Of a stretch of 7,301 bases of DNA, positions 523-7,301 are shown one piece after another; positions within the stretch are counted from its first letter, which is position 1; every line of letters begins with the position of its first letter. The notes beneath the pieces were generated by a model. The model saw only the letters and a program-made list of their open reading frames with translations, searched no databases and was not told the origin of the DNA. Location: contig JARGFV010000119.1 in NCBI GenBank assembly GCA_029210545.1, positions 1 to 7,301 of the forward strand. The letters are read 5' to 3'. A program made the position numbers and the translations under genes. The DNA is from a bacterium (GTDB taxonomy: Bacteria > BMS3Abin14).

Positions 523-599
<77 letters not shown>

Positions 600-765: not shown

Positions 766-789
766 AAAAGCCGCTACCCTGCGGCTTTT
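766..789 (-). terminator. Terminator hairpin containing the stop codon of the last operon gene
   Basis: The arms aaaagccgc (766-774) and gcggctttt (781-789) form a perfect 9-bp stem with a 6-nt loop. The TAG stop of the Fe-S gene (774-776) lies within the hairpin. The T-run on the minus strand is short (four T inside the stem), so it is either a weak intrinsic terminator or a 3'-end stabilising structure. Confidence 0.6.
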
Positions 790-2126
790 GTAATGCGCTC
801 GACCGGCACGTCTCCGCTGCGCGCCTTCAGTTCGGATATCACTCTCATCCTGCGGGCGATAAGCTCCGTGACGTGGAGGACCTCGATGGCCTCCATCCCC
901 CTCCTGCGCAGGCCATCCCGGATGTGCATGATGCATGCCGGGCACGAGGTCACCACCGCCTCGGCTCCCGTTTCGACGATGCGGTCAATTTTATTGTCAT
1001 TGACCTTCCTGGCAAGGTCGTAATGCTCGATGCTGAAAGAACCGCCCATGCCGCAGCATCGTTCGGCGTCGACCATGGGGACGTACTGGACCCCCGGCAG
1101 CGATTCGATGAGGCGTATGGGCGCCTCCCGGATCCCCTGGAGACGCGCCAGGTGGCACGGATGATGGTAGGTGACCCTCAGGGGCTCCCTTTCAACCTGG
1201 ACCTCCGTATCCCTGAAGTGGGCCGCCAGACCTGAACGGGTCAGGAAAGAGTTGATGTCATATACTTTTTCCACGAAAGCCCTGGCCCTGGCCTCCAGGA
1301 TACCTGCCTCTTTCAGGAATTCCAGGTAATTATGCTTCAGGTTCCCCCCGCACGAAGCGCACCCGGTGACGATGAAGTCGAGATCGTGTTTCTCGAACGC
1401 CTCCAGGTTTTTCACGGCCAGCTCGCCGACGGTTTCCCTGGCCCCCCCGGTCAGGGCCGGCATCCCGCAGCAGACCTGGCCCTCGGGGACAACGACTGTC
1501 GTTCCCAGGGAGCCCAGGATGTTGACCATCGTCTCGCCGATCTCGGGGTAGAAGTAGTTGACCATGCACCCGCCGAAGATCCCCACGCGGGGGCCGTACC
1601 CCTCCCTCACAAGTTCCTGGAACAGTTCGGTGAAAAAGTACCTGGCCACCGGGGGGACGGTCCGGTCCCGGGCGATGAGGGGCAGGGGGAACCGGCGCCT
1701 GAGGCCGCTGTCCTCAGGGATCCGGTGGAAAAGGAATTTCTGGAAGAACCACCCGGTCCGCATGGCGACCCGGAATGTCCGTGCCGCTCCCAGCAGGTGA
1801 TTGAGGATGATCCCCTTGCCGAACCTGAGGCCGGCATGTGAGGTCATCGCCTCCCGTGCCTTGAGCATCACCGGCAAGGTCGGCACCTCGTTGGGGCACG
1901 CCTCCTCGCACGCACCGCACAGGAGACAGGTCCCGATGTACTCCCGGTACCTGTCCGTCTCGCCCAGCTGCCCCAGGTGGACCGATTCGATGAGGGCCAT
2001 CTTGCCCCTGGGTGAAAAGGATTCGAGGCCCCCCGCCTCGTAGACAGGACAGACGGGGAAACAGCTCCCGCACTTGACGCAGTCCCGCTCGCTCCTCGGG
2101 CCCCTGTCAGGCATCTTGTCCCTCAT
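774..2126 (-). CDS. GlcF-type (Fe-S)-binding subunit of a 2-hydroxy-acid dehydrogenase
   Basis: A 450-residue protein that likely carries electrons from the FAD subunit encoded just upstream to a downstream acceptor. Two 4Fe-4S ferredoxin motifs lie at the N terminus: C16-C19-C22-C26 (CVKCGSCFPVCP) and C67-C70-C73-C77 (CLLCGACEEACP). Two CCG (cysteine-rich, DUF224) domains follow: the first with C187, C219-C220-G and C256/C259, the second with C324, C357-C358-G and C395/C398. This architecture defines GlcF, the glycolate oxidase iron-sulfur subunit; heterodisulfide-reductase subunits and LutA share the CCG domains. No signal peptide or membrane helix is seen, so it is probably cytoplasmic and perhaps peripheral to the membrane. 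It starts 7 nt after the FAD gene. A second ATG at 2114 has a better-spaced GAGGGA Shine-Dalgarno and could be the true start, losing four residues. Substrate (glycolate, D-lactate or another 2-hydroxy acid) cannot be told from this subunit. Confidence 0.93.
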   Translation of the reverse strand: MRDKMPDRGPRSERDCVKCGSCFPVCPVYEAGGLESFSPRGKMALIESVHLGQLGETDRYREYIGTCLLCGACEEACPNEVPTLPVMLKAREAMTSHAGLRFGKGIILNHLLGAARTFRVAMRTGWFFQKFLFHRIPEDSGLRRRFPLPLIARDRTVPPVARYFFTELFQELVREGYGPRVGIFGGCMVNYFYPEIGETMVNILGSLGTTVVVPEGQVCCGMPALTGGARETVGELAVKNLEAFEKHDLDFIVTGCASCGGNLKHNYLEFLKEAGILEARARAFVEKVYDINSFLTRSGLAAHFRDTEVQVEREPLRVTYHHPCHLARLQGIREAPIRLIESLPGVQYVPMVDAERCCGMGGSFSIEHYDLARKVNDNKIDRIVETGAEAVVTSCPACIMHIRDGLRRRGMEAIEVLHVTELIARRMRVISELKARSGDVPVERITKAAG

Positions 2127-2133
2127 CTTTCCA

Positions 2134-3561
2134 CTACCCGCTGTTTCCCCTGTAGTCGAAGGTTTTGGAAGGGTTCATGACATTGTTCGGATCCAGCGCG
2201 CGCTTGATGGTCCGCATGACGTGGATGAGGTTGTCGTCTATCTCCATGCCCAGGTAGGGCGCCTTGGCGATCCCGATACCGTGTTCGCCGGTAAGGGAGC
2301 CTCCGAGGTCCACTGTGAGCTGAAAGAGGTCCTTCACCGCCTCCTCGGCCCTTTTGCGCTCGTCCTTGTCGTCCGGGTCAACCAGGATGTTGACGTGGAC
2401 GTTCCCGTCACCGGCATGGCCGAAGTTGACCACCATGACGTCATGCTGCCTGGCGATCTCCTCGATCCCGATGATGAGTTCCGGGATTTTCATCCTGGGA
2501 ACGGAGACGTCTTCGTTGATCTTCAGGGGGCGTATTTTCATGATGGCGGGAGAAAGGGACCTCCTGACCTTCCAGAGTCCCTCGCGCTCCTCCGGCGTCT
2601 GGGCTCTTTTGACGTACAGGGCACCGGACCTCTTACAGACTTCCGTAAGCCTTTCAGCCTGCCTCCCGGCGCCAAGCTCATCCCCATCCACCTCCACCAG
2701 CAGGAGGGCGGACGCCCCTTTTGAAAGTTCCTCGCTGATGGACCCCTTGACGCAGTCGATGGCGCTGCGGTCCATGAACTCGAGAGTGGACGGGATGATG
2801 CGGCTCGCCATGATCCGGGCCACGGCCCGCGAAGCGGTGGAAACGTCCGGAAAAGCGGTGAGAAGGGTCACGACTGCTTCGGGTCTGGGCAGCAGCCTTA
2901 CGAGGATCTTCGTGATGAACCCCAGCGTGCCTTCGGAACCGACAAGGAGGCGGGTAAGGTCGTAGCCGGTGACGCTCTTGATGGCCTCCGAACCTGTGCG
3001 CACGATGCGGCCGTCCGGCATGACCACTTCGAGAGCCATGACGTAATCCCTGGTCACCCCGTACTTGACCGCCCTGGGACCGCCGGCGTTTTCCGCGACG
3101 TTGCCCCCGATGGTGGAAAAGTCCATGCTGGAAGGGTCAGGGGGGAAGAAGAGATCCTTTTCCAGGACAGCCTTCTGGAGATCGCCGTTGATCACCCCGG
3201 GCTCTACCCAGGCGGACATGTTATCGGGGTCCACCTCGACGATGCGGTTCATGCGGCTGGTGGTGAGCACGACTCCGCCCTCGACCGCCAGGGAGCCTCC
3301 TGTAAAACCGGTCCCTCCCCCTCGCGGGATGACGGGAAACATTTCCCGGTTGGCCAGCTTGACGATGGCCGAAACCTGGCGCGCATTCTCGGGATGGGCC
3401 ACCATCTCGGGGGGGAACCTGCGGTTCATGGCGTCGTAGGCGTACAGCACCAGGTCTTCGGAGCTGTCCGAACAGTGGTCGGGCCCCACGATCCTCCGGA
3501 TCTGATCCCGGGCGCTCTTGCTCAGGGGCTTGTACTGTGTGTCAATCACGTGATCCGGCAC
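2134..3561 (-). CDS. GlcD-type FAD-linked 2-hydroxy-acid dehydrogenase
   Basis: A 475-residue flavoprotein of the vanillyl-alcohol-oxidase/PCMH superfamily, the family of GlcD and bacterial D-lactate dehydrogenases. It oxidises a 2-hydroxy acid to the 2-oxo acid. The FAD-binding domain (about 40-225) carries PRGGGTGFTGG (79-89) and GGNVAENAGGPRAVKYG (152-168). The C-terminal FAD-linked-oxidase domain (about 230-470) carries NEDVSVP (349-355), NFGHAGDGNVHVN (379-391), GEHGIG (425-430) and LDPNNVMNPSK (456-466). The length is usual for GlcD. The start is GTG at 3561, one nt after the malic-enzyme stop, so translation is probably coupled; a second GTG lies at 3549 and neither has a strong Shine-Dalgarno. 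The neighbouring Fe-S subunit is the expected partner. No GlcE-like third subunit follows, which is a pattern common in D-lactate dehydrogenases of anaerobes, so D-lactate is at least as likely a substrate as glycolate. Confidence 0.93.
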   Translation of the reverse strand: MPDHVIDTQYKPLSKSARDQIRRIVGPDHCSDSSEDLVLYAYDAMNRRFPPEMVAHPENARQVSAIVKLANREMFPVIPRGGGTGFTGGSLAVEGGVVLTTSRMNRIVEVDPDNMSAWVEPGVINGDLQKAVLEKDLFFPPDPSSMDFSTIGGNVAENAGGPRAVKYGVTRDYVMALEVVMPDGRIVRTGSEAIKSVTGYDLTRLLVGSEGTLGFITKILVRLLPRPEAVVTLLTAFPDVSTASRAVARIMASRIIPSTLEFMDRSAIDCVKGSISEELSKGASALLLVEVDGDELGAGRQAERLTEVCKRSGALYVKRAQTPEEREGLWKVRRSLSPAIMKIRPLKINEDVSVPRMKIPELIIGIEEIARQHDVMVVNFGHAGDGNVHVNILVDPDDKDERKRAEEAVKDLFQLTVDLGGSLTGEHGIGIAKAPYLGMEIDDNLIHVMRTIKRALDPNNVMNPSKTFDYRGNSG

Positions 3562-3562
3562 G

Positions 3563-6145
3563 CTAGCTTGTCGATTCCAGTTTCCCCTTGAGGTGGCGGA
3601 GATGCCCCTCGTACAGATACTCGGTGGTCTTGGCGGCGATCTCCTCGGGGGAAACCTTTATCCGGGCGACACCGTCGTTGATGGCAGCCTGGGCCACCGC
3701 CGCGGCTACCCGGGGAGGTACCTTGAAGTTCATTGCGTCAGGGATGATATAGTCCGGCCTCACGTTCTTGTCGTCGATGAAGTCGGCGATGGCGTGGGCG
3801 GCGGCTATCTTCATGTTCTCAGTGATGTCGGTCGCCCGGACGTCCAGGGCCCCGCGGAAGATGCCGGGGAAGGCCAGGCAGTTGTTGACCTGGTTGGGGA
3901 AGTCCGAGCGGCCCGTGGCGACGACGGCGGCGCCGGCGGCGTGGGCATCGGCCGGCATGATCTCGGGGGTCGGATTGGCCATGGCGAAGACGATGGGGTC
4001 CTTGGCCATGGACTTGACCATGGCCTTGGTCACCGTGTTCGGGGCGGAAAGCCCGAAGAACACGTCGGCACCCTTGATGACATCCTCGATGGAACCTTTG
4101 GCCTGGTCGATGTTGGTGATCTCGGCCATATCCTCCTTGATGCGGTTCATCCGTTCCTTGCGGCCCTTGTAGATGGCCCCGGTGGTGTCACAGAGGATAA
4201 AATTCTTCGCACCGGCCGTCATGAGGAGCTTTGCCGTGGCGATGGCGGAAGCACCGGCCCCGTTCATGACGATCTTCACGTCGGCCATGTTCTTGCCGAC
4301 GATCTTCAGGGCGTTGATGAGACCGGCCAGGGCCACGACCGCCGTACCGTGCTGGTCGTCGTGGAAGATGGGGATATTGGTCTCTTTCTTGAGGCGCTCT
4401 TCTATCTCGAAGCATCGGGGCGCCGAGATGTCCTCCAGGTTCACACCGCCGAAGGTGGGTGAGATCGCCTTGACCAGTTCCACGATCTCATCCACGTCCT
4501 GGGTGCAGATGCAGATCGGGAACGCCTCCACCCCCGCGAAGGTCTTGAACAGGATGGCCTTGCCCTCCATGACCGGCAGGGCGGCCCGCGGCCCGATGTT
4601 GCCGAGGCCCAGCACGGCGCTGCCGTCGGAGACGATCGCCACCAGGTTGGCCTTGCATGTCAGGTCGTAGACCTGCTCCGGGTGCTTTGACAGCACGATG
4701 CTCGCCTCGGCAGCCTCGGGGGGAAGGTAGAGGCGGTTGAGGATGTACTCGTCCCGGATGGGCACTTTCACCTTGATCTCCAGGACTCCCTGGTACCGGT
4801 GGTGGAGGTCGATGGACTCCTCCATGACATCCATCTTCTTCTTCCTCGGCGGAGGAGCCGGAAGGACGGTGTACTCGTTCTCGTAGACGATCTTCCGGGT
4901 CTTCGCTTCAACCTCGTCCGGTGAGACCTCCACCCTCGCGTCACCTCGCAGGATGGCAGTCTCGGCGACGACCCTGGCTATGCTGGCTGCCACCTGGAAA
5001 TCAAAGATAGGAGGCACAAGGTTGGTCGGGTTGAGATTCCCCTCCGGTACCATTGAGGCGATGGTCTCCGCAGCTGCCAGGTAGGTGGCGTCGGTGATCC
5101 TCCAGGCCCTCACGTCCAGGAGACCGCGGAAGATCCCGGGGGCAACGTAAGCGGAGTTGATCTCGTTGGGGAAATCGGAGCGGCCCGAACCGACGACAGC
5201 GGCCCCGGCCTTTAACGCCTCGTCGGGCATGATCTCAGGCACGGGGTTAGCCAGGGCGAAGACGACGGCTCCTTTTGCCATGCTCTTTACCATCTCGCCC
5301 GAGACGATCCCCGGAGCCGAAAACCCGATGAAAACGTCAGCGCCTTCCATCATGTCCTTGAGGCTTCCGCTTTTTCTTTCGATGTTGGTCTGGAGGGAGA
5401 TCTCCGATTTGGCCCAGTTAAGAGGCATGGTCCGATAGCGGTAAATAGAGCCGTACCGGTCGCAAAGGACGATATGCTTGGCGCCCGCCGCGAGAAGAAG
5501 GCTGGCCGTCCCGATGCCGGCGGCTCCAGCTCCGGAGATGATGATCCTGCACCTGTCAAGGCGCTTTCCGACGACCTTCAGCGCGTTGATCAAGGCAGCG
5601 TACACAGCCACGGCCCCGCCGTGCTGATCGTTGTGCATCACCGGGATCCGCGTCGCCTTTTTGAGGTTGTTCTCCAGGGTGAAGCATTTGGGCGCCGCGA
5701 TGTCCTCTAAAACGATCCCTCCGAAGTTGGTGGTGAGACGGTGGCATATTTCCACGATCTCGTCCGTATCCTGGGTGTTCAGCGCGATGGGCATGGCGTC
5801 CACCCCCGCAAAGGTTTTGAAGAAGACCGAACGCCCCTCCAGCATGGCGAGGGCCGACTCCGGCCCCGTGCTGCCGAGCCCGTATACCGAGGAACCGTCA
5901 CTGATGACGGCGATCGTGTTTCCACGGCACGTCAGGTCGAAGGAGCGGATCGGATTGGCGGCGATCTCAAGGCAGGGAGCTGCCACGCCCGGCGTGTAGA
6001 GCAGGCTCAGCGCGGAAGCGTCTTTGAGCGGGACCTTGCTGTCGACACCGATGAGACCCTGGTTGCGCAGTCTCAGCTCCAGGCCATAATTCCTGCGGGG
6101 CTCGTGCCCCTTTCCGGTCTTGGGATCCTTGGTCTTGCGGGACAT
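3563..6145 (-). CDS. Tandem two-unit malic-enzyme-like protein (oxaloacetate-decarboxylating malate dehydrogenase family)
   Basis: An 860-residue protein built from two complete malic-enzyme-like units joined by a Pro/Lys-rich linker (about 425-450, PAPPPRKKK). Malic enzyme converts malate to pyruvate and CO2 with NAD(P). Unit 1 (about 18-424): YTPGVAAPC with Tyr50, Lys110, metal-site LEDIAAP (Glu147, Asp148), HNDQHGG (171-177), GAGAAG (205-210), [14 protein letters not shown]. Unit 2 (about 450-850): LYLPPEAA (472-479) in place of the YTPGVA loop, Lys534, LEDISAP (Glu571, Asp572), HDDQHGTA (595-602), GAGASA (629-634), [14 protein letters not shown]. Each unit is about the size of a normal bacterial malic enzyme. 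Large MaeB proteins carry a phosphotransacetylase domain at the C terminus instead, and none is seen here. I chose ATG 6145 because GAGGGGG lies 5 nt upstream; a longer frame from 6223 would add 26 residues that look non-coding and lie upstream of the predicted transcript start. It is first in the operon. Malic-enzyme family is certain; whether one or both units are active is not. Confidence 0.93.
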
Positions 6146-6150
6146 TTTTA

Positions 6151-6157
6151 CCCCCTC
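6151..6157 (-). promoter_or_regulatory. Strong Shine-Dalgarno that sets the malic-enzyme start
   Basis: The minus strand reads GAGGGGGTAAAAATG. The purine run is 5 nt from ATG 6145, so this start is preferred to the upstream in-frame ATG at 6223. Confidence 0.85.
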
Positions 6158-6379: not shown

Positions 6380-6586
6380 TCATATATTTTCCGGACCATG
6401 CGCCTGAAAAACGGGAAATAGTCCGGATTTGATGGCGTAAAGCAGCAAGCTCACCATCATCTGGGGATCGTAGGGTGGCTGCCCGCCGGCCGAACCGTCA
6501 TAGGATGCGTAAATCCGTTCAAGACATATAATTCTGAGGGCTAACTTCTTCAGAATTATATGTTTTTCCATGACATCATAGTACAA
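6380..6586 (-). pseudogene. Transposase fragment, IS1182-type N-terminal region
   Basis: A 68-residue frame opening with TTG. Residues 25-51 include IYASYDGSAGGQPPYDP followed by QMMVSLLLYA, which I recognise as the conserved N-terminal block of IS1182-type transposases (normally several hundred residues long). Similarity stops after LLYA; the remaining tail (IKSGLFPVFQ...) looks like sequence joined by an internal deletion. The residues before 20 are encoded by a perfect inverted repeat and do not resemble the usual transposase start. No catalytic residues remain, so it is non-functional. Confidence 0.75.
6524..6563 (+). repeat. 14-bp perfect hairpin inside the IS remnant
   Basis: The arms acatataattctga (6524-6537) and tcagaattatatgt (6550-6563) pair perfectly around a 12-nt loop, followed on the plus strand by ttttt. 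It could act as a weak plus-strand terminator. It overlaps the 5' part of the transposase fragment. Confidence 0.75.
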
Positions 6587-6607
6587 TGGGCCGACAAAAT
6601 ATATCTG

Positions 6608-6660
6608 GGAGTCTGTGCCCTGCCTGTCTAACCAGACAGGCAGGTTCTCCGACAGACTCC
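6608..6660. repeat. Nested hairpins at the right end of the IS remnant
   Basis: The outer arms ggagtctgt (6608-6616) and acagactcc (6652-6660) are perfect complements. Inside them cctgcctgtct (6619-6629) pairs with agacaggcagg (6634-6644) around a 4-nt loop. The outer right arm includes the element's terminal repeat. Confidence 0.75.
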
Positions 6661-6724
6661 TAGGCTGCGGTCCTGGACCTGTTTTCCCAGGATCCTTCCT
6701 TCGCTACCTCCCCCTCACCTCGGT

Positions 6725-6845: not shown

Positions 6846-6869
6846 CCCTCTCCCTCGGCGGGGAGAGGG
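6846..6869. repeat. CCCTCTCCC/GGGAGAGGG hairpin
   Basis: Perfect 9-bp arms (6846-6854 and 6861-6869) surround a 6-nt loop, preceded by catcaccccgg. It is the same repeat type as 6725-6745, and its right arm begins the 46-bp direct repeat. Confidence 0.65.
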
Positions 6870-6905
6870 AGAATAAGGAAAGGGGCTATTGGCATGGGGA
6901 GGAAG
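6860..6905 (+). repeat. 46-bp direct repeat, copy 2
   Basis: By eye identical to 5-50 in the same orientation. The pair brackets the tRNA, the operon and the IS remnant. Confidence 0.9.
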
Positions 6906-6961
6906 AATGAGGAATTTCGCCTTCCTTCGTGTTACTTTGTGACCTTCGTGTTGGATTAAAC

Positions 6962-7224
6962 TCCGCTTTCACAGGAACCGCGCCTTCCCCTCAGGTCCTT
7001 CGCCTTACCCTGCTTGCCGAGTCGAAGCCTTGGCGAAGACTGGCGTCACCCTGCCTGTCACGTCGTAGCTTTAGCGAAGACGGATGGTTAGATGGCTCTT
7101 ACCGCTTTTACAGGAACCGGGCCTTACCCCAGATTCAGCCTTCCTCCGTATCCGACGCCTGTCACGCCAGAGGCGTGATGAGCTCTGTGGTGAATCCGCT
7201 CTTGCCGCCTTTACAGGAACCGGG
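6962..7224 (+). repeat. Dispersed 'ctttacaggaacc' units, copies 2-4
   Basis: Three imperfect same-strand copies lie at 6962-6990 (tccgctttcacaggaaccg...), 7101-7130 (accgcttttacaggaaccgg...) and 7204-7224 (gccgcctttacaggaaccgg). The first two continue as gccttcccc or gccttacccc. Spacing is irregular (about 139 and 103 nt), so this is not a CRISPR array. Confidence 0.6.
7021..7083. repeat. Paired gcgaagac-containing motifs
   Basis: The motifs gtcgaagccttggcgaagac (7021-7040) and gtcgtagctttagcgaagac (7062-7081) are alternative versions of one imperfect palindrome. A similar inverted word, gtcttcgccttcggcttcg, occurs near 451-469. They appear to be degenerate intergenic repeats. Confidence 0.5.
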
Positions 7225-7301
7225 ATCGCTTCGCCCGGGCATTAGCTCGCGAAGACAAGCATTACCCCAGTTCCTGCCTTTCTTCGTGTCCGACTTCGTC
7301 A

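Follow-up and report, generated by a model that had tools for sequence, protein, structure and literature searches.

In this report, we describe a malic enzyme (ME) gene in which two complete small-type ME units are fused into a single chain of 860 residues. On the pattern of residue conservation, the protein very probably works as a pseudo-heterodimer that arose by one duplication and fusion, with a live composite active site (site A) spanning the two halves, a second composite site (site B) that has been released from catalysis, and a unit 1 that is still essential. The window (the whole stretch of DNA that was analyzed, 7,301 nucleotides) is the entire contig C119 of a draft genome of 2.7 Mb (241 contigs, 97% complete). 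No description of a fused ME was found in the open-access literature searched. The features of the gene and its product are as follows.

3563..6145, minus strand: tandem ME, 860 amino acids plus stop codon; uninterrupted open frame, Pfam malic and Malic_M domains in both halves, homologues of the same architecture
6151..6157, minus strand: GAGGGGG, a putative ribosome-binding run read from the sequence, 5 bases before the ATG at 6145
4835..6145, minus strand: unit 1, residues 1-437, with a canonical tyrosine loop and a degenerate catalytic body
3566..4834, minus strand: unit 2, residues 438-860, with an altered tyrosine loop and a canonical catalytic body
4823..4870, minus strand: linker of 16 residues
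5963..6010, minus strand: unit 1 tyrosine loop, residues 46-61; Tyr50 corresponds to BbMaeB Tyr52 (aligned to 6ZN4)
5831..5833, minus strand: unit 1 Arg105, aligned with the catalytic Lys (BbMaeB K107)
5702..5707, minus strand: unit 1 Glu147-Asp148, metal/proton-donor pair, kept
5627..5632, minus strand: unit 1 Asn172-Asp173 in HNDQHGG, with Asn172 in place of the partner Asp of the catalytic Lys
5516..5533, minus strand: GAGAAG (residues 205-210), the Rossmann motif of unit 1, present in every lineage
5153..5167, minus strand: unit 1 NEINS, residues 327-331, with Ser331 in place of the substrate Asn (human N467)
4691..4741, minus strand: unit 2 tyrosine loop, residues 469-485, in which Tyr473 remains and YTPGVAxPC is replaced
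4559..4561, minus strand: unit 2 Lys529 (VMEGK), catalytic general acid/base, aligned to BbMaeB K107 and to the EhME Lys motif
4430..4435, minus strand: unit 2 Glu571-Asp572
4355..4360, minus strand: unit 2 Asp596-Asp597 (HDDQHGT), lysine partner and metal ligand
3974..3976, minus strand: unit 2 Asn724 (ANP motif)
3881..3886, minus strand: unit 2 Asn754-Asn755 (NQVNN), substrate asparagines

The presence of two complete ME units in one chain, proposed earlier in a sequence-only reading of this DNA, was borne out by the open frame, the Pfam matches, alignments to solved MEs and recurrence in other genomes. A Pfam search of the 860-residue protein found malic in three stretches and Malic_M in two, all above cut-off, so that each unit contains both domains of the small-type ME family (PF00390 and PF03949). 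Solved small MEs align to nearly the full length of each unit (1-437 and 438-860), and the two units are 50% identical to each other. An AlphaFold run of the full chain, made with an alignment of 27 rows of which only three cover unit 1, gave a mean pLDDT of 72, a pTM of 0.53 and values below 50 for the tyrosine arms. Two other identities were considered and rejected. A hybrid MaeB is not indicated, with no PTA match in Pfam and a score of 671 against NF009501 (cut-off 1178), and for malolactic enzyme the score against NF041582 was 113 bits (cut-off 850). In most relatives a distant large-type ME is found beside the tandem gene; a PF00390 search of the window's genome returned no ME besides the tandem gene and no large-type ME.

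Ten other members of the window's family have the fused gene (72-82% identity; some copies fragmentary), and two of these relatives are single-contig assemblies with a complete or near-complete fused gene. The window's phylum is represented in the collection by 12 genomes of one family, and 11 of them have the tandem ME; G009, counted among the 11, has it only as pieces on separate contigs. A search of 337 genomes identified tandem MEs in two further phyla, represented by G246 and by G145, to which G339 and G340 were later added, for a total of four genomes in two phyla outside that of the window. The G340 copy (L140/L146 on G340:C320) is incomplete: the final third of unit 2 contains stop codons, which reflect either a sequencing error or a decaying gene. 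An apparent tandem in G012 was rejected, as a MaeB and a small ME, both canonical, are encoded there by separate genes. No relative was found among viral contigs. The linker is 16-19 residues long in all tandem lineages. An assembly error, which the sequence-only reading had named as a possible source of the fusion, is ruled out by this recurrence in 10 other genomes of the family, single-contig assemblies included.

The catalytic positions were assigned by alignment to the enzymes of two structural papers (PMC7902834 and PMC11944484), with positions counted along alignments to 6ZN4, where the chain index minus 11 gives the published BbMaeB numbering. In BbMaeB the catalytic residues are Y52, K107, E149, and D174, and Y52 is supplied by the other monomer (PMC7902834). 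In EhME the triad is Tyr65 (65-YTPGV-69), Lys120 (116-VMEGKA-121), and Asp193; the hydroxyl of Tyr65 lies 2.8 Å from NZ of Lys120 of the other chain, and the dimer is described as entangled (PMC11944484). The suggestion in the earlier reading that some small MEs receive their tyrosine from the neighboring subunit is correct for both enzymes. By alignment, Y52, K107, E149, and D174 of BbMaeB correspond to Tyr50, Arg105, Glu147, and Asn172 in unit 1 and to Tyr473, Lys529, Glu571, and Asp596 in unit 2, respectively. The statement that both units keep the Lys (110 and 534) did not hold, since these are the lysines of an FK motif, and the catalytic Lys is that of VMEGK: Lys529 in unit 2, replaced by Arg105 in unit 1. 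In the orthologue from G001 (L008, a complete single-contig genome) the residue at the position of Lys534 is His, encoded by CAC, two base changes from the AAG of the window; the FK lysine is present in all other unit-2 sequences and single MEs compared.

The remaining motifs noted earlier, namely YTPGVAAPC, HNDQHGG, and NEINS in unit 1, HDDQHGTA and NQVNN in unit 2, and the Glu-Asp metal pair and Rossmann-type glycine motif (GAGA..) in both, are all present as read. The claim that unit 2 has lost its tyrosine loop stands in part. The loop is altered, the segment after Tyr473 being one residue longer than YTPGVAxPC and replaced in sequence, but the tyrosine itself is not lost, as Tyr473 aligns with BbMaeB Tyr52 and is present in all members of the window's family that cover the position. 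All nine catalytic residues are found within unit 2 of the window protein, but its tyrosine loop is altered; unit 1 is without the catalytic Lys, its Asp partner and one Asn.

The same arrangement is found across the window's family. Unit 1 of all 11 members examined retains YTPGVAAPC; the catalytic Lys is Arg, its partner Asp is Asn or Ser, and NQxNN reads NEINS. The catalytic body of unit 2 is kept, and the unit-2 loop is altered in every member covering it. In the other phyla the substitutions are different. Unit 1 of G246 has EGY for EGK (Tyr where the window protein has Arg105), HGDQDAN, and NHFTS, and its unit-2 loop reads LYSSKTASETC. Unit 1 of the G145 group keeps the Lys and has H[ST]DQH, NEVSC, and ASP for ANP; its unit-2 loop is IISTPGAA, with Tyr replaced by Ser, and its unit-2 metal site is perfect. 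Outside the window's phylum the Lys-partner Asp of unit 1 is replaced by Gly, Ser, or Thr. Common to every tandem examined are a canonical unit-1 tyrosine loop, the unit-2 catalytic Lys, and a unit-2 body that is canonical at the catalytic positions.

Nine catalytic positions (Tyr, Lys, Glu, three Asp, and three Asn) were then scored for each putative composite site, where site A is the unit-1 tyrosine loop with the unit-2 body and site B is the unit-2 loop with the unit-1 body. Ten complete tandems were scored; the eleventh, from G340, was left out as incomplete. Site A has 9/9 residues (YKEDDDNNN) in 10/10 complete tandems, and all nine positions are likewise kept in 37/37 single MEs compared. 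Site B is missing three to five of the nine in every complete tandem, reading YREDNDNNS or YREDSENNS in the window's family, YYEDGDSTS in G246, and SKED[ST]DSSC in the G145 group. Site B would thus have decayed by different substitutions in each of three distantly related lineages.

The contrast was also determined over larger sets of alignment columns, in tests that treat columns as independent. For the window's family, of 71 body columns that are invariant in single MEs, unit 1 has lost 18 and unit 2 none (p = 2e-6), and of 6 loop columns unit 1 has lost none and unit 2 four (p = 0.06). For columns conserved at 95% or more among 27 representative single MEs, the numbers kept and lost in site A and site B, respectively, were 80/3 and 62/21 for the window's family (p = 9e-5), 81/2 and 57/26 for G246 (p = 4e-7), and 78/5 and 62/21 for the G145 group (p = 1e-3). 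The loop contrast by itself, over 6-7 columns, gave p = 0.06-0.07 for the window's family and p = 1 for the G145 group. The strength of the cross pattern lies in the body contrast and in its repetition across lineages, not in the loop contrast. At the level of sequence, duplicated halves with one intact and one degenerate putative composite site are conserved across the homologues. The pattern had been described before as a complementary loss in the two halves; the crossing is confirmed, and it is better described as the joint decay of one of two composite sites.

In a maximum-likelihood tree of 59 units, the unit-1 sequences form one clade (100/96) and the unit-2 sequences another (100/98), and all tandem units fall together on one side with respect to 37 singles (95/90). 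On this topology the tree demonstrates a single ancient duplication and fusion of a small ME gene, which predates either the divergence of three phylum-level lineages or a transfer between them. The decay of site B would have come after the fusion, separately in each lineage. Sister to the tandem clade (83/82) is a single canonical ME from G194 (L133, G194:C23), possibly close to the ancestor that was duplicated; no tandem ME was found in a search of the phylum of G194. The Lys of the GK motif, where the chains cross, is replaced in both units of the window protein (Leu31 and Val454). As this canonical single sister also has GV there, without the Lys, the replacement is not peculiar to fused MEs.

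Within the window's phylum the mean identity is 78.8% for unit 1 and 76.0% for unit 2, with unit 1 higher in 19 of 21 pairs. This slightly greater conservation argues that unit 1 is no passenger. The corresponding values for unit 1 and unit 2 are 77 and 82% within the G145 group and 49 and 61% between phyla. Unit 1 is under constraint, on terms specific to each lineage.

These results are consistent with the following mechanism. A single in-frame duplication and fusion of a small prokaryotic ME gene would have taken place in a common ancestor of the three lineages, which have since moved far apart. Identical chains of ordinary small MEs swap their N-terminal tyrosine helices to give two composite sites per dimer. 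The fused halves would pair with each other as a pseudo-heterodimer, either inside one chain or head-to-tail between chains. In site A, unit 1 would contribute the tyrosine loop and unit 2 would contribute Lys529, the metal ligands, the substrate asparagines and the nucleotide fold (Lys529, Glu571, Asp572, Asp596, Asp597, Asn724, Asn754, and Asn755). Site A is predicted to catalyze the NAD(P)-dependent oxidative decarboxylation of malate or the reverse reaction. Site B, freed from catalytic constraint, would have lost its catalytic residues separately in each lineage and is probably inactive. Unit 1 would stay essential, both to donate the tyrosine and as a structural partner; its nucleotide fold is probably retained and may sense a ligand. 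The proposals of the sequence-only reading that unit 1 lends its tyrosine loop to unit 2, and that the protein is an internal pseudo-dimer with one working site, fit the cross pattern of retention and seem well supported, with site A complete and site B short of three to five residues. The other tandems found by searching for proteins with two ME units, in the family and in two other phyla, are alike.

The halves could instead pair homotypically, or form sites in cis, in which case unit 2 would be an ordinary homodimeric ME using Tyr473 and unit 1 a dead or regulatory dimer. Tyr473 aligns with the catalytic Tyr in the window's family, the unit-2 body is fully canonical, and that residue alone is compatible with a site of this kind. 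With Ser in place of Tyr, though, unit 2 of the G145 group would be dead; given its perfect metal site, the tyrosine must come from elsewhere, and unit 1 keeps it. Homotypic pairing would also leave the unit-1 loops canonical in all lineages though serving a dead body and the unit-2 loops altered in all lineages though serving the sole live body, and we consider it improbable. A bifunctional enzyme, in which site B catalyzes another 2-hydroxyacid conversion, would accord with the position of the gene among 2-hydroxyacid genes (LarA-like, GlcD/GlcF) in the window's phylum. That neighborhood is not common to the other tandem lineages, though, and the changes in site B differ between lineages and remove the general base or its partner; such a function is very improbable. 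A pseudogene or an assembly artifact can practically be dismissed: the window offers nothing in its favor, and the stops in unit 2 of the G340 copy are set against a fused gene that recurs in other genomes, single-contig assemblies included, with conserved catalytic residues.

Pairing of unit 1 with unit 2 can be extended to a model in which site B is a ligand-sensing allosteric site and the dead partner controls the live one. The GAGAAG Rossmann motif and Glu-Asp metal pair of unit 1 are kept in all lineages, which makes a sensory role possible, the substituted letters are conserved within the window's family (Arg105 and NEINS), and in that phylum unit 1 is the more conserved half. However, each lineage has its own substitutions, so that a common ligand is not implied, and the conservation could be merely structural; we hold this extension tentatively, as somewhat less than an even chance. 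A more elaborate version is a single-chain, entangled, domain-swapped dimer, knotted and with one live site, in which the dead site has turned into a sensor of nucleotide or substrate that controls the live one. The single-chain form may be knotted, given the entanglement described for the parent dimer, but we regard this combination of properties as unlikely.

The tandem ME gene is followed in the window by two further genes on the same strand.

2134..3561, minus strand: GlcD-like FAD-linked 2-hydroxyacid dehydrogenase (PF01565 and PF02913; TIGR00387 below cut-off)
774..2126, minus strand: GlcF/LdhH-like iron-sulfur protein (PF02754 twice and Fer4_8)

The GlcD-like gene starts 1 base after the ME stop codon. 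Five further family genomes also have it next to the ME, and four have the GlcF/LdhH-like gene there. The recurrent cluster in the window's phylum (L098-L104; L168) comprises genes for a PdxA-like protein, an ABC substrate-binding protein, a LarA-like 2-hydroxyacid racemase, the tandem ME, GlcD, and GlcF, with members missing in some genomes. In the window's genome, PdxA, the binding protein and LarA are found together on another short contig, C122. Related repeats are found at the ends of C119 (1-102 and 6736-7301; 59 nt at 95% identity between 1-59 and 6856-6914), and other repeat families lie at 247-280 and 6956-7294. Given these flanking repeats, the cluster was probably split, and the assembly probably broken, at this point. 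The LarA superfamily comprises racemases acting on many 2-hydroxyacids, and malate racemase is among the activities discussed for it (PMC7583248 and PMC11770544). The cluster suggests a role in the use of 2-hydroxyacids (lactate or malate). It is not common to the other tandem lineages and so does not explain the fusion. Elsewhere in the window, a 107-residue frame (6383-6703, minus strand) has no Pfam match; by eye, its PPYDPQMMVSLLLYAIKSG stretch resembles the remnant of a transposase. A tRNA-Met (CAT) is located at 523-599 (minus strand), downstream of the operon, and adjoins a 32-nt imperfect inverted repeat (467-498/503-534).

Each half of the tandem ME has the topology and motifs of the small dimeric prokaryotic-type MEs (Candidatus Phytoplasma ME, 5CEE; Entamoeba EhME; T. 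maritima, 1VL6), whose composite sites with a swapped tyrosine are of the kind proposed here. Those enzymes are homodimers with two identical sites, whereas the tandem departs from the homodimer of identical chains in having two diverged copies in one chain and, as judged by its residues, a single intact composite site. The ME part of hybrid MaeB (BbMaeB, 6ZNG) is likewise similar, with a tyrosine supplied in trans (Y52) and K107, D174, and E149, but its ME is joined to a PTA domain, and the tandem has no PTA domain and a second ME as the C-terminal partner. In the membrane adenylyl cyclases there is one working and one degenerate composite site. They too are dimer-forming enzymes duplicated and fused into one chain, as C1/C2 pseudo-heterodimers (PMC9552081); their fold is unrelated to that of ME, and no regulatory ligand is in evidence for the degenerate site of the tandem. 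The active AdoMetDC of Trypanosoma needs a catalytically dead paralogue, the prozyme, which is encoded by a separate gene and relieves autoinhibition (PMC5201418), whereas the dead partner in the tandem ME would donate a catalytic residue.

The small ME is a textbook enzyme of central metabolism that shares each active site between two identical chains. The fusion can be viewed as a natural experiment in broken symmetry, in which one site is kept and the other would have decayed repeatedly, by different substitutions. The entangled parent dimer suggests that a single-chain knot may have arisen naturally. The fusion also predicts which half provides which residue, and would offer a clean system for asking why enzymes with shared sites keep two of them.
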